DNA of 47,716 nucleotides, from NCBI GenBank assembly GCA_011176615.1, contig DUEG01000005.1, forward strand, positions 1 to 47,716, given 5' to 3'. Below the pieces are notes generated by a model. The model did no database searches, was not told the origin of the DNA, and was given only the letters and a program-made list of their open reading frames with translations. The first letter of the stretch is position 1; every line of letters starts with the position of its first letter. The translations under genes and the position numbers were made by a program. The DNA is from Anaerolineae bacterium (lineage in GTDB: Bacteria > Chloroflexota > Anaerolineae > Anaerolineales > UBA11858). Below, piece by piece: positions 23,274-39,931 of the stretch.

Positions 23274-23344
23274 CTGGGGGCAGAGGATTCGAACCTCTAC
23301 TTACGGATTCAGAGTCCGCTGTCCTACCGTTAGACGAGCCCCCA
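23274..23344 (-). tRNA. tRNA-Gln(CTG)
   Basis: Minus strand TGGGGGC...GCCCCCA with G73; anticodon loop CTCTGAA gives CTG; T arm AGAGG-TTCGAAT-CCTCT. Confidence 0.95.
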
Positions 23345-29811: not shown

Positions 29812-31896
29812 TTAAGGATTTGTTGATGTTGAATCGATAACTTTCAATTCAAAATATGCTTCCAATACTTTGCGAACGATTGGTGCTGCAACACTTGAAC
29901 CCTCTAATCCATTATAGACAAAAGCAACGACAGCAATCTCCGGGTTGTCATACGGAGCATAAGCAACTGTCCATGCGTGGGAAGGCCAATCGCCTGGTTT
30001 GCAAAGATTTTTCGCATTAGCAAACTCATCACAGTATTCAGCTGTGCCAGTCTTGCCGGCAGAAGCGACGGTAAAGTTTTTAAATGCTTTAATTAATGTT
30101 CCAGATGTAACAGCCTTCCTCATTCCTTCTTGAACTTTTTGGATGACCCAAGGTTCCACAGTAATTTTATCCCCGGTTAATTTTGCTTCACATCCACCTG
30201 CACTAGTTGGATCACTATAAACGTCGATTACTGGATCTTGTGTGATGTCCCATTTTAAATCAGGCTGAAATGGTTGGATGACATTTCCTTGACTGTCCAC
30301 AATATCATGGATAATTGTTGGTCTCATCAATTTACCATCAGCCGCTATTACAGAAGCGGACATCAATACTTGTAAGGGCGTTGCGATTACAAAACCTTGA
30401 CCGACGCTGGCTATGTAGGTATCGCCAATAGACCAATTTTCGCCTTGTGTAATTCGTTTCCAGTGGGGATCAGGCACAAGACCGTCTGCCTGGTCTGGTA
30501 ATTCGATTCCTGGATAATCGCCATATCCCAACGCGCGTGCATAAGTGCCCAATCTACATATTCCTAAGCCTTCTGGAACCTCGTCTTTATAACCTCCACC
30601 AAGTTTATAAAAATAGACATTACTGGAATTTGCGATACCACCTAGAAAGTCTAATTGACCGAAACCAGCGCGATTCCAATCGACGAATTTTCTAGCGTGA
30701 CCAGGATCGTTAGGCGTATATTTCTCAGTGATATAAATTTCTCCTGGCGTGGAGATAATTTGGTCTGGTGTTACAACACCTTCGTTTAATGCTCCCACTG
30801 CGGTAGTTATTTTGAATACAGAGCCTGCTGGTAATTCTGCTCCAACTGCATGGTTGAGTAAAGGATCGCGTGCGTCCCTAATTAATTGTTCATAATAATA
30901 GGAAGGTATATATCTCGCGAAACGATTGTTTTCGTAAGAAGGAAAATTAACCATGGCAAGTATTTCACCAGTTTGCGGATTCATAGCAATTACTACGCCA
31001 CTGGTGATTCGTATCTCATTAAAATAGTTATTCCATTGGTCAATTTCGCTTTTTAATATTGCTTCTACTGCTTGCTGTAATCGTGTATCAATCGTTAAAT
31101 AGATATTTTGACCTGGAAAAGAGGGTATGGTGGGTTTGACATCCCGAATAATTTTACCTGCTACATCAACTTCAACAACACGTTTGCCAGGCTTTCCCGC
31201 TAGCAAACTGTTAAATGATCGTTCTACGCCAGCATAACCAATTTTATCTCGATTTGGTACAAATCCTCTTTCGCGATAATATTCCTCGTTAACTGAAGAT
31301 ATAGGCCCTAGGAAACCAATCAAAGGCGCTGTAATTGAACCGGTTGGATAGTCGCGAATAGGCTCTACTTCAATACTAACACCTAGCCAATCTGTACTTT
31401 TTTCTAAAATCTTCATTGCAATTTCTCTATCAATATCACACTTGATTTTTACTGGTTCAAATGGTGCGCTGGTCTCCCCATAATTAACAATTTGTGCAAT
31501 ACCATGATCTGAAACACAAGGGACATAAGGATTATCACTAGTGACTTCATTTAAATTGATGGGCACATTAATTAATTTTGATAATTGACGGAAAATATCC
31601 TGAATAGCGCCCTCTTCATCAGGAAGATTTGCAGGAATAATTACAACATTGTAAGAAGCGATATTTCGTGCTAAGACGTACCCATTTCGATCGTATATAA
31701 CCCCTCGCAAAGCAGGAATGCTGATTTCGTTTATCCGATTATCTTCTGCAAATGCAACCCAAGTGTCTCTATCGAAGATTTGAATTCTGATTAATTCGCC
31801 GATATAACCAGTAAAAACCAAAGAAACAACGATAATGAAACTTATTAAACGCCATTTTGAGATTGTATTTCTAGTATAACTATTGATATTACTCAT
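29812..31896 (-). CDS. mrdA: Penicillin-binding protein 2
   Basis: ALRGVIYDRNGYVLARN; AELPAGSVFKI (SxxK); SSN; KTGTAEYCDEF. Confidence 0.95.
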   Translation of the reverse strand: MSNINSYTRNTISKWRLISFIIVVSLVFTGYIGELIRIQIFDRDTWVAFAEDNRINEISIPALRGVIYDRNGYVLARNIASYNVVIIPANLPDEEGAIQDIFRQLSKLINVPINLNEVTSDNPYVPCVSDHGIAQIVNYGETSAPFEPVKIKCDIDREIAMKILEKSTDWLGVSIEVEPIRDYPTGSITAPLIGFLGPISSVNEEYYRERGFVPNRDKIGYAGVERSFNSLLAGKPGKRVVEVDVAGKIIRDVKPTIPSFPGQNIYLTIDTRLQQAVEAILKSEIDQWNNYFNEIRITSGVVIAMNPQTGEILAMVNFPSYENNRFARYIPSYYYEQLIRDARDPLLNHAVGAELPAGSVFKITTAVGALNEGVVTPDQIISTPGEIYITEKYTPNDPGHARKFVDWNRAGFGQLDFLGGIANSSNVYFYKLGGGYKDEVPEGLGICRLGTYARALGYGDYPGIELPDQADGLVPDPHWKRITQGENWSIGDTYIASVGQGFVIATPLQVLMSASVIAADGKLMRPTIIHDIVDSQGNVIQPFQPDLKWDITQDPVIDVYSDPTSAGGCEAKLTGDKITVEPWVIQKVQEGMRKAVTSGTLIKAFKNFTVASAGKTGTAEYCDEFANAKNLCKPGDWPSHAWTVAYAPYDNPEIAVVAFVYNGLEGSSVAAPIVRKVLEAYFELKVIDSTSTNP

Positions 31897-32393
31897 GATT
31901 CTAACTCAGTTGGGAAAATTGTCTCCGAGACATCTTGAATTAATGCATAGATTGGAATAGATAACAATAAGTTGAGCAACAAACTGGGCAATGTTATCAA
32001 GTTTATCGTATCCATTAATGGTAATGTTGAATGCGTAAGATTAATCATTAAATAAGATAAAAAGTGAGTGAGGATTGTGCCAACAAAAGTAATGATGATC
32101 ATTGTAAAATAAGGTTTTTGCCAAACCTGTCTTTTTGTGATTAAGGTAATTTCAACTATTGACAAATAGGAAATCAAATAAACTAATAGTGGTAAGGTAG
32201 ATACAAAACCAATTAATATTGCTGAAAACAAACCCCAAAACCAAGCGGAATTGTCTTTTGATAGCAAAGACCAAGCAATCAACACGAGCATGCTTATGTC
32301 TGGTGTGCCTTGAAGTAGAGGCATCTGATTGATAATCGATGTTTGTAAGATGACTAATCCAATAAAAATCGGAATGGATATTATGGTACTCAT
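31893..32393 (-). CDS. mreD: Rod shape-determining protein MreD
   Basis: Small hydrophobic protein with MreD-like TM pattern, between mreC and mrdA; start overlaps mrdA end/start junction. Confidence 0.85.
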   Translation of the reverse strand: MSTIISIPIFIGLVILQTSIINQMPLLQGTPDISMLVLIAWSLLSKDNSAWFWGLFSAILIGFVSTLPLLVYLISYLSIVEITLITKRQVWQKPYFTMIIITFVGTILTHFLSYLMINLTHSTLPLMDTINLITLPSLLLNLLLSIPIYALIQDVSETIFPTELES

Positions 32394-32396
32394 AAC

Positions 32397-33245
32397 TTAT
32401 GGATTTACTGGTGTTGGTTGAAGTGGGGTGATATTGAATGATTTGAAATTCGTTATGATTAAAACTATTTCTAAATGCGAGAAATCAACCGTTGGTTGAA
32501 CAGAGCCACTTTGAAAGAGCGCATAGTCCTGTTTTCTAATACTAGATACTTGACCAATAAGAATGTTCGGAGGATAGTCGCCACCTAATCCTGAAGTGAG
32601 AACAAGATCGCCATTTGAAATGTTTGCGTCTTGAGGAATAAAATCTAATAATAAATCGCCAGTAATTGAGCCAATCAATATTCCTTCTGCATTTGTGGGC
32701 TGAAGGCGAACATTTAACTTAGAACCCGGATCGGTGATTAATAGTACGCGAGATGCTTCGGGAATTACATTTGCTATACGACCAATTAATCCTTTATCCG
32801 ACACCACTGGCATTCCTCTTTGCAATCCATCATCGGAACCACGATTGATAATTATGTAATGAAGGAAAGGACTTGGGTCTTTTCCAATAACACTTGCGCT
32901 TGAATAATGGAAATCTGGATTTGCCCTTGCGAAATCTAATAAAGCAGATAATATCTGATACTCGTTTAGTTGTTGTTGAAGAGAAATTATTTGGCTTTGT
33001 AATTTGGATACTTCTGCCTCAAGTTCTGCATTTTTTGTTATCAATACGTTTATATCTTTAGGTGTATTAATGCTATTAGATATTGCGTAATATTGTTCAG
33101 AAACTTTTGTTTGTAGCCGAACCAATGGTTGTAAGGCGATTTTAATTACAGGTGTTAAATAACCACTAAATCCAAGCATAATAAAACCAATTGCTAATAT
33201 ACTCAAAATAATGGTACGGAATAAATCAGGAGAATTACTTTTCAT
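32397..33245 (-). CDS. mreC: Rod shape-determining protein MreC
   Basis: N-terminal TM plus coiled coil; ASVIGKDPSPFLHYIIINRGSDDGLQRGMPVVSDKGLIGRI; LVLTSGLGGDYPPNILIGQV. Confidence 0.95.
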   Translation of the reverse strand: MKSNSPDLFRTIILSILAIGFIMLGFSGYLTPVIKIALQPLVRLQTKVSEQYYAISNSINTPKDINVLITKNAELEAEVSKLQSQIISLQQQLNEYQILSALLDFARANPDFHYSSASVIGKDPSPFLHYIIINRGSDDGLQRGMPVVSDKGLIGRIANVIPEASRVLLITDPGSKLNVRLQPTNAEGILIGSITGDLLLDFIPQDANISNGDLVLTSGLGGDYPPNILIGQVSSIRKQDYALFQSGSVQPTVDFSHLEIVLIITNFKSFNITPLQPTPVNP

Positions 33246-33324
33246 TATGTAGGTTCTAAATCAATAAATTTAATTTCGGAATTATCAAGATATTAGATTG
33301 ATCTATGTTGAGGTGACAATATAG

Positions 33325-34392
33325 TTATGTGTGGCGAGTACTACCGCGTTCTAAGCCCACGAATAAGGACCCCCATTTGTCTCTGTTCTCTAGTGCAATA
33401 CCCGCACCCCGCGCAACACAACTGATTGGATCTTCAGCAACCCATGAGCGTATGTGTAATTCATCGGTAAGACGTTGATCAAAACCTTGCAACAAACTTC
33501 CGCCACCTGCTAAGCATATGCCATTATCCATTAAATCCGATAGAATTTCTGGCGGAGCCTCATCAAGAGCATCTTTTATTGTATCAATAATAGTTTGAAT
33601 TGATACAGACATCCCTTCCCTGAGCTCTACAGAAGAAACTTCTAACGCCTCTGGAAGACCTGTTATCAAATTCCTACCACGGAGAATAAAGGTCTTTTCT
33701 TCCGGAAGATGATATGCGGAACCAATTGTCATCTTTGCTTGTTCCGCCATGCGTTGACCAATTAGTAGGTTGTATTTGTTCCGAATATATAAAATAATAT
33801 CCTCATCAAGTTCGTCCCCTGCGACTCTTAATGACCTGGAAACAACAACACCTTGCATGGATAGAATAGCCACTTCAGATGTGCCTCCACCAATATCTAC
33901 AACCATGCTCCCTTGTACTTTGTCGATGGGTAAGCCAGCACCCAATGCTGCGGCGACAGGTTCCTCAATTAAATAGACTTCTCTGGCACCAGCAGACATT
34001 GCAGCATCATAAACTGCTCTCTTCTCAACTTCAGTAACACCAGCAGGTATGCCAATGACAACCCTCGGTCTTGGTACAGGTACAATACTTTGTTGATGCG
34101 CTCTACCGATGAAATACTCAAGCATTGACTGTGTGATTTCAAAATCCGAGATGACTCCATCGCGTAGCGGTCGAATTGCGATGACATTTGCTGGTGTTCG
34201 ACCGACCATTTCTTTGGCTTCTGCACCAATTGCGATTGGTTCTTTAGTTCGTTTGTTAATGGCTACCCATGAAGGTTCATTGATAACAATGCCTTTACCG
34301 CGGACATTAACTAATGTATTTGCGGTACCAAGATCAATACCGATATCTAACGAGAAGAAGCCTAACAATATGTTTAAAGGGTTGAAAGCCAA
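33325..34392 (-). CDS. mreB: Rod shape-determining protein MreB
   Basis: DIGIDLGTANTLVNVRGKGIVINEPSWVAI; VDIGGGTSEVAILSMQGVV; ICLAGGGSLLQGFDQRLTDEL. Confidence 0.98.
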   Translation of the reverse strand: MAFNPLNILLGFFSLDIGIDLGTANTLVNVRGKGIVINEPSWVAINKRTKEPIAIGAEAKEMVGRTPANVIAIRPLRDGVISDFEITQSMLEYFIGRAHQQSIVPVPRPRVVIGIPAGVTEVEKRAVYDAAMSAGAREVYLIEEPVAAALGAGLPIDKVQGSMVVDIGGGTSEVAILSMQGVVVSRSLRVAGDELDEDIILYIRNKYNLLIGQRMAEQAKMTIGSAYHLPEEKTFILRGRNLITGLPEALEVSSVELREGMSVSIQTIIDTIKDALDEAPPEILSDLMDNGICLAGGGSLLQGFDQRLTDELHIRSWVAEDPISCVARGAGIALENRDKWGSLFVGLERGSTRHT

Positions 34393-34510
34393 AACACTCT
34401 CCCTATATAGGCAAAATAATAATTTTTACTGGGAGCGATTATACCAGTTTTGTTGAAGTATTCTAATAATTCGCTTGGGTTAAAAACAATGATATTATCA
34501 ATAATTGAGA

Positions 34511-34516
34511 TATAAT
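34511..34516 (+). promoter_or_regulatory. Candidate -10 box for the glmS transcript
   Basis: tataat at 34511-34516, about 70 nt upstream of the predicted ribozyme cleavage site; no clear -35 identified. Confidence 0.4.
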
Positions 34517-34586
34517 CTGTTTCACTAAATAAACATTACTATGGAATTTAAAAAGGAGGTGCATATAAGAATTTAATGGGAAAGAT

Positions 34587-34800
34587 AGCGCAAGGGCCAA
34601 AAATCTTGATTTATATGGATTTGACGGTTGACGAGGATGATGGTTCCTCTCAGAGACGAGAGGATAAGTGGTGATCAAGCATACTATTGATACACACAAA
34701 AATCGAATAATCAGCGGAAGCCATCCGGGTTGTCCATTACCCGTTTCCTTTCCCTCCAGTTAAACTTTATATTCAAAACTCATGAGGAATTATGAGCACA
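34587..34800 (+). ncRNA. glmS glucosamine-6-phosphate-activated ribozyme (candidate)
   Basis: In the glmS leader: gatA|GCGCaaGGGCC, GGTTGACGAGGATGaTGG, ATCGAATAATCAGCGGAAGCCATCCGGG, CGGG..CCCG hairpin, CCAGTTAAAC and a downstream CTCAT/ATGAG hairpin, in the order known for glmS ribozymes; cleavage predicted between A34587 and G34588. 3' end approximate. Confidence 0.85.
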
Positions 34801-34881
34801 AAAATATGAAGAATGGAAAAATATTAAAAGATCAGGTAAGTTCATTAGGGTAGAAAACATTATTATGGAGGGTTTCTTGCT

Positions 34882-36723
34882 ATGTGTGGAATTGTTGGGT
34901 ATATTGGGCAAAAGGACGCAACGCCTATCGTATTAAATGGGCTTAAGCGGTTGGAATATCGTGGCTATGATTCGGCGGGTTTGGCTATCTTGCAAGACGA
35001 AACGATTAAAATTAGACGCGTTGCTGGGAAGATTGACAAATTATTTGAACTAGTTTCTGAAAGTCCATTAAAGGGGAATATCGGGATTGGGCATACTCGT
35101 TGGGCTACTCATGGGGAGCCTAACAAAACCAATGCACATCCACATTTAGGAAGCAATAAGGATGTCGTAATTGTCCATAATGGCATCGTAGAAAATTATT
35201 TAGAATTAAAGGATGAATTGATTGAAGAGGGGGTGAATTTCAAATCCGAAACTGATACCGAAGTTATTGTACATTTAATTGAGTTATTTCTTACTTCAGG
35301 GTTAAGAATTGATGAGGCTGTACGCATGGCAATAATGAAAATACGCGGCGCTCATGGTATTGTTGTATTTTCAAAAAATGAACCCGATAGGATTATTGCT
35401 GCAAGGATAGGGAATGCTGGAGGGGTGGTAATAGGGGTTGGAAAAAATGAAATGTTTATAGCGTCTGATATTCCCGCAATCCTAGATCACACTAGAAAAA
35501 TGATTTTTTTAGAATCCCAACAGATGGCAATAGTAAAATCAAATGAAGTGGACATTTATGACCTTAATGGAAATGCTTTGACGTACGAAGTGCATAATGT
35601 GAATTGGGATCCTGTTTCTGCCGAAAAGGGGGATCATAAACATTTTATGCATAAAGAAATTCACGAGCAAGTCAGATCTTTAATAGATACTATTGCAGGA
35701 AGAGTGAATTTCACAGATTATTTAATTAAATTTAATGATTTGAGTTTGGACAAAGAACTTGCGATAAGCATAAATAAAATATTCATCACCGCTTGCGGGA
35801 CTGCTGCTTATGCGGGAATGGTAGGAAAAATATTAATTGAAAAAGTTGCAAGGATCCCGGTAGAAGTGGTCATAGGGTCTGAATTTAGGTATAGTGACCC
35901 GATAATTGATGAAAATACTATCGTTTTGGCTATAAGCCAATCAGGAGAAACTGCAGATACATTGGCAGCAATGGATGAAGGGAAGAAAAGAGGGGCAAAA
36001 ATATGGGTAATTGTTAACGCAATAGGTTCACAGGCAATGCGTATAGCGGATGGGTATATATCGATGCAAGCGGGACCTGAAATTGGTGTAGCCTCCACGA
36101 AAGCATATACTGCACCTTTGGTTGATTTGTATATGCTAGCGATATTATTAGGGGAATTGCGTGATTCAATTTCAGAACAACAAAGAAGAGATTTAGTTAA
36201 TAATTTACGACTTGTGCCAGATCTTGTGGGAGAATGTTTAACCCGCGAGGATGAGATAGTTGAAATCGCAAAAAGATTAGAGAATATGCAACATTGTTTG
36301 TATTTGGGTAGAGGGATCAATATGCCAACGGCTTATGAAGGGGCTTTGAAATTAAAAGAAATTTCGTATATCCATGCTGAAGGTTATCCTGCTGGAGAAA
36401 TGAAGCACGGACCGATCGCATTAATTGATAACAATATGCCAGTAATTGTTATTTCGCCGAAAGATCCGTGGTATGAAAAAATGATTAGTCAAATTGAGCA
36501 GGCAAAGGCAAGAGGGGGATTTGTTATCGCTTTAGCAACAGACGGGGATGAATTGATAAAGGATATTGCAGATCGTGTGATTTGGGTTCCTGAAACGCCA
36601 TGGATGTTAAGTCCTGTTATCTCTATTATTCCTTTGCAATTACTTGCTTATCATATTGCCCATCAAAGAGGACTTGATGTTGATCAACCCAGAAACTTAG
36701 CCAAGTCCGTAACTGTTGAATAG
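34882..36723 (+). CDS. glmS: Glutamine--fructose-6-phosphate aminotransferase (isomerizing)
   Basis: MCGIVGYIGQKDATPIVLNGLKRLEYRGYDSAG; HTRWATHG; ACGTAAYAG; SQSGETADTLAA; LAKSVTVE C-terminus. Confidence 0.98.
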   Translation: MCGIVGYIGQKDATPIVLNGLKRLEYRGYDSAGLAILQDETIKIRRVAGKIDKLFELVSESPLKGNIGIGHTRWATHGEPNKTNAHPHLGSNKDVVIVHNGIVENYLELKDELIEEGVNFKSETDTEVIVHLIELFLTSGLRIDEAVRMAIMKIRGAHGIVVFSKNEPDRIIAARIGNAGGVVIGVGKNEMFIASDIPAILDHTRKMIFLESQQMAIVKSNEVDIYDLNGNALTYEVHNVNWDPVSAEKGDHKHFMHKEIHEQVRSLIDTIAGRVNFTDYLIKFNDLSLDKELAISINKIFITACGTAAYAGMVGKILIEKVARIPVEVVIGSEFRYSDPIIDENTIVLAISQSGETADTLAAMDEGKKRGAKIWVIVNAIGSQAMRIADGYISMQAGPEIGVASTKAYTAPLVDLYMLAILLGELRDSISEQQRRDLVNNLRLVPDLVGECLTREDEIVEIAKRLENMQHCLYLGRGINMPTAYEGALKLKEISYIHAEGYPAGEMKHGPIALIDNNMPVIVISPKDPWYEKMISQIEQAKARGGFVIALATDGDELIKDIADRVIWVPETPWMLSPVISIIPLQLLAYHIAHQRGLDVDQPRNLAKSVTVE

Positions 36724-38188: not shown

Positions 38189-39931
38189 ATGGCAACGAAA
38201 TCATTTAGCATTGATGAAGTTAAAGAAAACTTTCAGGAAATAAACATTGAGGAAGATGAAAGAAAAGGATATTCAGGATTAATAGTCGAAACGGATAAAT
38301 TAGTGGATTTTGCCAACATACTTAAGAACAAAATGGGGTTTGATTATCTTTCATCTGTAACTGGGGTTGATTATCTGCCAGACAACATGATGGAAGTCGT
38401 CTATCACGCATATAAATCAACTGGCGGTAAACCAATGGAATTCAAAGTACAGGTACCCAGGGAAAAACCCGTTGTACCATCATTGGTTTCGGTTTACCCA
38501 GGAGCAGGATTCCAGGAACGAGAAGCATGGGATTTATTAGGTATAAAATTTGATGGACACCCTAATCTAAAGAGAATACTTATGTGGGAAGGCTTTGCTG
38601 GTCATCCACTTCGTAAAGATTGGCACGAAGCATATTATGAAGAAGATGCAAAGCCTTATAAGAGCAGATGGCCAAATGGTCGCGATGTTCATCTTGCTGA
38701 GGACAGAAATCCGTACAAGAAGAATGTTGTATACCCTAAAGATTTTGATCCTGACAAATGGAATCCTGAAGGGGAAGACGCATTATACCTTGGTATGAAA
38801 TCATTGCAAAAGGATGATGATTTAAAAACAGAACAGATCATTGTTAATCTAGGCCCCCAACATCCATCGACGCATGGTGTTTTCAGAATGGTTGTGAATT
38901 TGGAAGGGGAAACAGTAAAGAAACTGGAACCGGTTATGGGGTATCTTCATCGAAATCACGAGAAGATTGGCGAGAGGAATACTTATTTGATGAATATCCC
39001 TTATACGGATCGGCTTGATTATTTATCATCAATGAGCAATAATTTCGGTTATGTTCTTGCTGTTGAAAAACTTATGGGAGAGAAGGCAAAACCGACAGAG
39101 CGCGCAGAATACATTCGCGTAATTATGGCTGAATTTACGCGCATTAGCAATCATTTGTTTGCAATTGGAACTTTCTTGAATGACCTTGGCGCATATTTTA
39201 CACCAATGTTGTATGCGCTTGAAGAACGAGAATTGATAATGGATATATTTGAAGCGACTGCAGGTTCTCGAATAATGTGTAATTATTTCCGATTTGGCGG
39301 TGTTGCTAGGGATCTGCCACCAGGAGTCTATGAGAAAATGCGAGACCTTGTTTTTGATAGGCTTCCAAGGAAAATAGATGAACTAGATAAATACCTTACA
39401 AATAATGAGTTGGTACGAGTACGTAGTGAAGGGATTGGGGTCCTCACACCAGAGGAAGCAATCGCATTTTCTGCAGCGGGACCAGTTTTAAGAGCATCAG
39501 GTGTTCCATACGATGTTAGGAGAGCTGAACCATATGGTATATACAATCGATTTGATTTTAAAGTGGTTGCACGGAACCATGGAGATGTATATGACCGGTA
39601 TTTAGTTAGGCTGGAAGAAATACGCCAGAGTATCCTTATTATTCAACAAGCATTAGATCAAATGCCGGATGGGCCCATTATTAATGGGAAGCCACAATAT
39701 CAAGTTAGAGTGCCTGCTGGAGAGGCATATGGAAGGGTAGAAGGGCCTAAAGGGGAGTTAGGCTTCTATATTGTTTCCAACGGAAAACCAAATCCATGGA
39801 GGTATCACGTACGCGCCCCTTCGTTTATCAACCTGACTGCCTTGAGTAAGATGTGTGAAGGCGATAAGGTTGCTGATACAATTATCATTTTGGGTTCGAT
39901 AGATATTGTGTTGGGTGAAACAGACCGTTAA
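38189..39931 (+). CDS. nuoCD: NADH-quinone oxidoreductase subunit C/D fusion
   Basis: NuoC part: [40 protein letters not shown]. NuoD part: [38 protein letters not shown]. Confidence 0.95.

Follow-up and report, generated by a model that had tools for sequence, protein, structure and literature searches.

Whether the leader of glmS in an Anaerolineales genome encodes a glmS ribozyme, and how cleavage of such an RNA would be read out by the gene behind it, are the questions raised by the stretch of DNA analyzed here (hereafter the window; 47,716 nucleotides). The glmS ribozyme is a textbook ribozyme riboswitch that acts by cutting and decay. An earlier note on this DNA had placed one ahead of glmS, and had named beforehand the RF00234 score relative to its gathering cut-off as one check on which that claim could fall. 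Infernal searches against Rfam returned an RF00234 match at 34576-34821 of the plus strand, spanning the full model (1-167) with a score of 47.4 bits (E 8e-10; cut-off 37); the only other match in a scan of the whole window was a tRNA gene (23274-23344, minus strand; 63.2 bits). The gene downstream (34882-36723, plus strand; 613 aa) scored 782.9 bits against 418 with the equivalog model TIGR01135, confirming it as glmS and the ribozyme as part of its 5′ UTR. While 47 bits is a moderate score, the E-value, the synteny with glmS and the occurrence of homologous leaders across the order rule out a chance match, the probability of which we consider negligible; judging from its sequence, the element is almost certainly a glmS ribozyme. 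Divergently oriented from glmS are mreB, two small mreC/D-like genes and pbp2 (29812-34392, minus strand; MreB and PBP2 assigned by NCBIfam), such that a set of cell-wall genes adjoins the ribozyme. On the other side, after nuoB, a single gene (38189-39931; 580 aa) encodes a fused NuoC-NuoD protein matched by the NuoC model over residues 34-146 and by NuoD models from residue ~212 onwards.

The host is represented by an Anaerolineales metagenome-assembled genome (MAG) of the phylum Chloroflexota, the assembly of which is 83% complete. In agreement with the phylum proposed in the earlier note, the nearest named GlmS proteins came from Anaerolineales MAGs (71-73% identity). The host itself, which had been put forward as the ground for interest, had to be given up as such, the ribozyme family being common in the phylum: of the close relatives, 46 of 61 had an RF00234 match, and among 400 genomes each from the order and the phylum the number was 254 and 125, respectively. 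The overall reading of the note was thus partly upheld, as to ribozyme and phylum, and failed as to the notability of the host; missing from it were two lineage-specific helices designated here P0 and P5, the inserted hairpins, the fact that the 5′ fragment bears a Shine-Dalgarno-like element, and the ribozymes that relatives place before glnA and glutamate-synthase-like genes. A total of 149 Anaerolineales loci were parsed; the parser demanded A|GCG, hence its presence in 149/149. The downstream gene, assigned mostly by N-terminal motif and on some loci with profiles (PF00120/TIGR00653 for glnA), was glmS in 97 loci, glutamine synthetase (glnA) in 46 and glutamate-synthase-like (gltB-like) in six, so that about one-third of the Anaerolineales copies examined precede a gene of the latter two kinds. 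Outside the order, every examined locus with a readable gene was a glmS locus. The loci share ancestry, so that the z values given below make them look more independent than they are; the controls, drawn from other windows and from other Chloroflexota, speak against an artifact of composition. No report of the additions or gene associations described here for Anaerolineales was found in the literature searched, outside which lay the survey of McCown et al. 2011, and priority for these findings is tentative.

The Rfam alignment positions the predicted cleavage between A34587 (A-1) and G34588 (G1), as had been anticipated, and all of the sequence blocks recognized previously sit where they had been placed; all features described hereafter are on the plus strand. 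A(-1)|G1 C2 G3 and the P1 hairpin that follows together span 34587-34629. The 5′ strand of P2.2 (34588-34592) engages C2, G3 and C4 (34589-34591) with G34716, C34715 and G34714, respectively (C2-G56, G3-C55 and C4-G54), leaving A5 opposite A34713. P1 (34594-34629) is built on a GGCC/GGUU base and has as its distal part the AAAUC/GAUUU pairing that had been assigned to the first hairpin. It is followed by GACGAGG (34630-34636), which contributes the 5′ strand of P2.1 and the active-site guanine (Rfam alignment; residue roles from PMC11602151) and the last six letters of which, ACGAGG, recur in 148 of the 149 parsed loci. The 3′ strand of P2.1 is found in AUCGA (34702-34706), part of the cofactor pocket (Rfam alignment; PMC7125110); the resulting CGA/UCG helix (34632-34634 with 34703-34705) forms the double pseudoknot with P2.2. 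The core helix, read in the earlier note as GGAUG/CAUCC, is in reality P2, made of GAUGG (34639-34643) and CCAUC (34721-34725). Covariation in relatives supports this register (GAGGG/CCCUC, GAAGG/CCUUC and GGAGG/CCUCC), the window pair being a compensated change relative to GAGGG/CCCUC. The 3′ strands of P2.2 and P2 lie in UCAGCGGAAGCCAUC (34711-34725; Rfam alignment and covariation).

P3, the P3.1 pseudoknot and P4, with its purine internal loop and GNRA loop, are all located within 34726-34817. P3 (34726-34743) is the CGGG/CCCG hairpin seen earlier, and a terminator-like match in the window leader proved to be this same hairpin; by direct reading, its loop UCCAU (34733-34737) forms the five base pairs of P3.1 with AUGGA (34813-34817). 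J3/4, CUUUCCCUCCA (34748-34758), contains the pyrimidine segment UUUCCUUUCCCUCCA. P4 (34765-34811) consists of CUUUAUAUU/AAUAUGAAG, with an internal loop CAAAA/CACAAA, an upper stem CUCAUGA/UUAUGAG and a GGAA loop (34786-34789); a strict scan found a GNRA-capped hairpin in 102 of 149 loci. The 3′ end of the element is at ~34817-34821 and not at 34800, and UUAAAC, taken for the terminal block, sits between the P5 strand and P4. The stability of the whole-leader fold was uninformative (z -0.25).

Two additions stand out in the window. One is the pyrimidine segment of J3/4 given above; the other, located between P2 and the 3′ strand of P2.1 (within the gap from GGUU to AUCGA), is an insert of 59 nt harboring two hairpins, one closed by CCUCUC/GAGAGG (34646-34663) and the other by GUG...GAUCAA/UUGAU...CAC (34668-34697); order-wide, the insert has a median of 48 nt and the two-hairpin fold is found in 138 of 148 loci. 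The fourth pair of P2.2, 5-53, is missing, A34592 facing A34713. Position 5 is A or C in 105 glmS-like loci; C5 occurred with G53 in 16/16 and A5 with A53 in 89/89 (the U4 type counted), indicating that the two combinations replace each other as a set and that A.A is a maintained state, the commoner one in the order. Since pair 5-53 is also poorly conserved in the glmS ribozyme family (PMC7125110), it was not treated as defining.

Upstream of the cleavage site, where the RF00234 consensus is unpaired, the window carries GGGAAAG (34578-34584), the complement of CUUUCCC (34748-34754) in J3/4. This helix, P0, was recovered in the unconstrained minimum free energy fold and in a comparison of matched with swapped partners: the strand at -13 to -2 relative to cleavage paired better with its own J3/4 than with borrowed ones, both in glmS leaders (-11.0 vs -8.9 kcal/mol, n=96) and in glnA leaders (-7.3 vs -6.5 kcal/mol, n=46), p being at the permutation floor in the two cases, and control windows at -25 and -37 showed no preference for their own J3/4. 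The signal persisted upon removal of similar loci, with z -11.2 (n=63) and -9.1 (n=35) for glmS and z -4.5 (n=30) and -2.3 (n=17) for glnA/gltB; it was absent from 27 other Chloroflexota loci (z +2.6). P0 sequences are diverse (GGGAAAGA/UCUUUCCC, GGGAGAGA/UCUCUCCC, GAAUUGG/CCAAUUC, UUGGGAA/UUCCCAA, AAGGAUAA/UUAUCCUU and GGCAAAU/AUUUGCC), and the helix is very probably real. By eye, a few class-level loci (L267-L270) and the more distant L283 also look P0-bearing, as illustrated by GGGGGGAAG/CUUCCCCCC in L269, suggesting that P0 may predate the order.

The remaining helix, P5, joins CCCUCCA (34752-34758) of J3/4 to UGGAGGG (34866-34872), the Shine-Dalgarno sequence of glmS. Tests of P5 used a narrow J3/4, the wide one being confounded by the P4 strand; a best-site test biased by site choice was left aside, as were seven terminator loci where the hairpin was the wrong one or the P5 site was misplaced. 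For glmS leaders, the pairing signal of J3/4 fell in the Shine-Dalgarno window, at z -3.0 and p 0.0016 (z -3.2 on non-redundant loci), and neighboring windows gave none. For glnA/gltB leaders of the terminator type, it fell 16-50 nt before the terminator hairpin, where z was -4.3 (p 0.0002), or -3.7 on non-redundant loci, and other windows again gave none. As with P0, the sequences vary (GCCCCUCA/UGAGGGGC, CCCUCC/GGAGGG, CCCUUCC/GGAAGGG, CCCUUUC/GAAAGGG and CCCUUCU/AGAAGGG), and P5 is probably real. The indication that a helix including the Shine-Dalgarno sequence coevolves with it is modest, because any glmS J3/4 pairs well with any Shine-Dalgarno sequence. The P5 segment of terminator-type leaders was also a better match to the 5′ arm of the terminator in its own leader than to the arms of other loci, with z at -3.0 and p at 0.0012 (0.017 on non-redundant loci), consistent with a possible antiterminator.

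P0 and P5 draw on the same nucleotides. They have 3 nt of J3/4 in common in the window and overlap by at least 2 nt in 71 of the 77 glmS leaders in which both helices reach at least 6 bp and, among terminator-type leaders, in 22 of 24. In fold predictions, which ignore pseudoknots, removal of the 5′ piece from glmS leaders increased P5 pairing (p 8e-6) and lowered the mean openness of the Shine-Dalgarno sequence slightly, from 0.202 to 0.154, the change going in the opposite direction in 14 of 92 loci; for the window, predicted openness fell to 0.04, starting from 0.30, or from 0.21 when the 5′ flank was extended. The equilibrium fold predicted for glnA/gltB leaders favored P5 plus the terminator whether the 5′ piece was present or absent. 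Any switch there would therefore have to be kinetic, and the model is weaker for these genes.

The glnA loci span five GTDB families and the gltB-like loci three. Many genomes have both glmS and glnA copies of the ribozyme; in L159 the two genes stand in tandem ~2 kb apart, each with a ribozyme of its own. The glutamate-synthase-like FMN proteins come in two forms, one of which has a cysteine-rich N terminus and matches no model clearly. The L261 protein matched PF01645 and, in part, the model of the glutamate synthase large subunit; the shorter form, in L263, gave no clear match. The 5′ end of glnA-type ribozymes reads GCG(G/A)CUG or GCGUAUG in place of GCGC(A/C), which fits a bulged fourth nucleotide followed by C5-G54 and U6-A53; bulged alternatives of P2.2 have been described in mutants (PMC7125110). 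The active-site and cofactor-pocket blocks ACGAGG, AUCGR and GCGG recur unchanged whichever class of gene follows, which makes GlcN6P the most likely cofactor of the glnA and gltB types as well. Many glnA leaders carry a terminator-like hairpin ahead of the gene, and about one-third of them, chiefly in family f13, have no recognizable terminator. Just 5′ of P0, glnA-type leaders share a conserved ACAAYUGAAUA, also seen before gltB-like genes and in a small number of glmS leaders, for which no pairing partner was identified. No PF00120 match was obtained in the 83% complete host assembly, and the contigs bearing its glutamine synthetase gene are probably absent.

Transcription of the window leader may start from a sigma70-like promoter (ATGATA, 16 nt, TATAAT; 34489-34516) that matches the consensus at 10 of 12 positions, a weak finding by itself with ~2.5 such sites expected by chance in the region; the estimated transcription start is near 34523. 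Across glmS leaders, a TATAAT was present in 77 of 96, its median position being 60 nt upstream of cleavage, and in some families the promoter is so near that the 5′ piece would measure ~20 nt, which weighs against the strand-exchange reading given below. The fragment removed by cleavage contains AAGGAGGUG (34553-34561), which is fully complementary to the 16S tail that relatives have (GGATCACCTCCTTT) and lacks a start codon at Shine-Dalgarno spacing. GGAGG occurs in 60 of 95 glmS 5′ fragments against 3.5 expected and in 4 of 46 glnA leaders, its commonest form being GGAGGUG, mostly (AA)GGAGGUG, complementary to the 16S tail. No ATG was found 4-12 nt after the element in 61 glmS loci, and an upstream open reading frame behind AAGGAGGUG was rejected on that count. 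The element co-occurs weakly with CCUCC in J3/4, its possible partner (Fisher p 0.037), and may be either a detachable STAB-SD stabilizer or a decoy occupying that CCUCC.

In terms of sequence statistics, the Anaerolineales-type element comprises the conserved core, two inserted hairpins, P0, the alternative helix P5 and the overlap of P0 and P5 on J3/4. The reading that we favor, with a probability of roughly 0.55, is that of a GlcN6P-activated self-cleaving ribozyme exerting feedback control on glmS in a manner that includes strand exchange. At low GlcN6P, the uncut leader would hold J3/4 in P0 and leave the Shine-Dalgarno sequence more open; at high GlcN6P, the RNA would be cut at A34587|G34588, the 5′ piece would depart, P5 would form and mask the Shine-Dalgarno sequence, and the 5′-OH product would then be degraded by RNase J. 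Cleavage followed by RNase J decay is established for B. subtilis (PMC3997798), and probably operates here too, an RNase J homolog being encoded in the host genome (573.9 bits vs 400). GlcN6P binding leaves the fold of known glmS ribozymes unchanged (PMC11602151), so that a pairing destroyed by cleavage would be a natural coupling to the expression platform. That the exchange, as driven by cleavage, acts as a control mechanism is slightly less than an even bet for glmS and less likely for glnA/gltB, the ribozyme copies of which would let GlcN6P influence the supply of glutamine, the amino donor of GlmS.

How much of this architecture is required depends on whether an ordinary glmS ribozyme, working through cleavage and RNase J only, could account for it, P0 merely clamping the substrate strand, P5 closing the P4 domain and the overlap with the Shine-Dalgarno sequence being incidental. 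The canonical mechanism is sufficient (PMC3997798) and RNase J is at hand; the known ribozymes, as cited above, do not refold on GlcN6P, support of a core by peripheral helices is common, and P5 is kept in glnA/gltB leaders, where its 3′ strand is not a Shine-Dalgarno sequence. However, competition of P0 and P5 for nucleotides of J3/4 would be odd if both were purely structural, cleavage itself abolishes P0, and P5 in glmS leaders falls on the Shine-Dalgarno window and on none of the other leader windows tested; we consider this account rather unlikely. Clearly less probable still is one in which AAGGAGGUG would be the working part, ribosomes bound to it as to a STAB-SD shielding the uncut mRNA from RNase J and the shield being lost on cleavage. 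The enrichment of GGAGG in glmS 5′ fragments, its complementarity to a 16S tail that relatives possess and the lack of an ATG at Shine-Dalgarno distance speak for such a role, and STAB-SD elements have been described in Bacillus (cited in PMC3997798); its rarity in glnA leaders speaks against it, as does its ability to pair with CCUCC in J3/4, which may make it a Shine-Dalgarno mimic for P5. Stabilization would be compatible with the favored reading of a cleaving, strand-exchanging ribozyme, P5 then being secondary.

Very improbable, finally, is a fold that has been kept while its function was lost or passed to another ligand, above all in the glnA type with its altered P2.2. The A.A in place of C-G at 5-53 of the window might point that way, single mutations there costing ~1000-fold in a Tte core construct (PMC7125110), as might the weakness of P1 and the extra nucleotide at position 4 of glnA types; against this, each of the 105 loci has either the A5/A53 or the C5/G53 combination and the three active-site and pocket blocks are retained before all classes of gene. 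Returning to the strand-exchange reading, its broadest form would make the Anaerolineales glmS ribozyme a cleavage-driven switch whose 5′ strand guards an anti-Shine-Dalgarno segment in glmS leaders or an attenuator segment in many glnA/gltB leaders, and which co-ordinates amino-sugar synthesis with the glutamine synthetase/glutamate synthase route of nitrogen assimilation. We advance it tentatively, the odds being against it as a whole. If true, the regulon of this ribozyme would reach nitrogen assimilation and its mechanism would reach to self-cleavage read out as strand exchange; the system also lends itself to asking directly whether the cut by itself, with no nuclease involved, suffices to turn off a gene.

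Compared to the RF00234 ribozymes of B. subtilis, B. anthracis and T. tengcongensis, the window shares A|GCG, P1, the P2/P2.1/P2.2 core, P3, P3.1, P4 with its loops, and glmS downstream; it differs in the two hairpins between P2 and the 3′ strand of P2.1, the A.A at 5-53, the pyrimidine segment of J3/4, P0 where the consensus is unpaired, and P5 to the Shine-Dalgarno sequence. All but two of 463 glmS ribozymes reportedly resided in glmS mRNAs in the survey of McCown et al. 2011, which is also said to have described extra core stems in Deinococcus-Thermus glmS ribozymes; by that description, those variants resemble the window in bearing extra stems in the catalytic core. Riboswitch platforms that mask a Shine-Dalgarno sequence or form a terminator likewise engage the Shine-Dalgarno sequence or, in most glnA/gltB-type leaders here, a pre-terminator segment in a helix that originates in the sensor RNA, but their trigger is ligand-induced refolding whereas the one proposed here is the loss of a strand by self-cleavage. 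The STAB-SD of cry3A in B. thuringiensis similarly places a Shine-Dalgarno-like sequence close to the 5′ end with no start codon to serve, the window element differing in that it would be detachable by the ribozyme. The glnA RNA motif (glutamine riboswitch, RF01739) also precedes glutamine synthetase genes, yet belongs to an unrelated family, the Anaerolineales glnA leaders matching RF00234.
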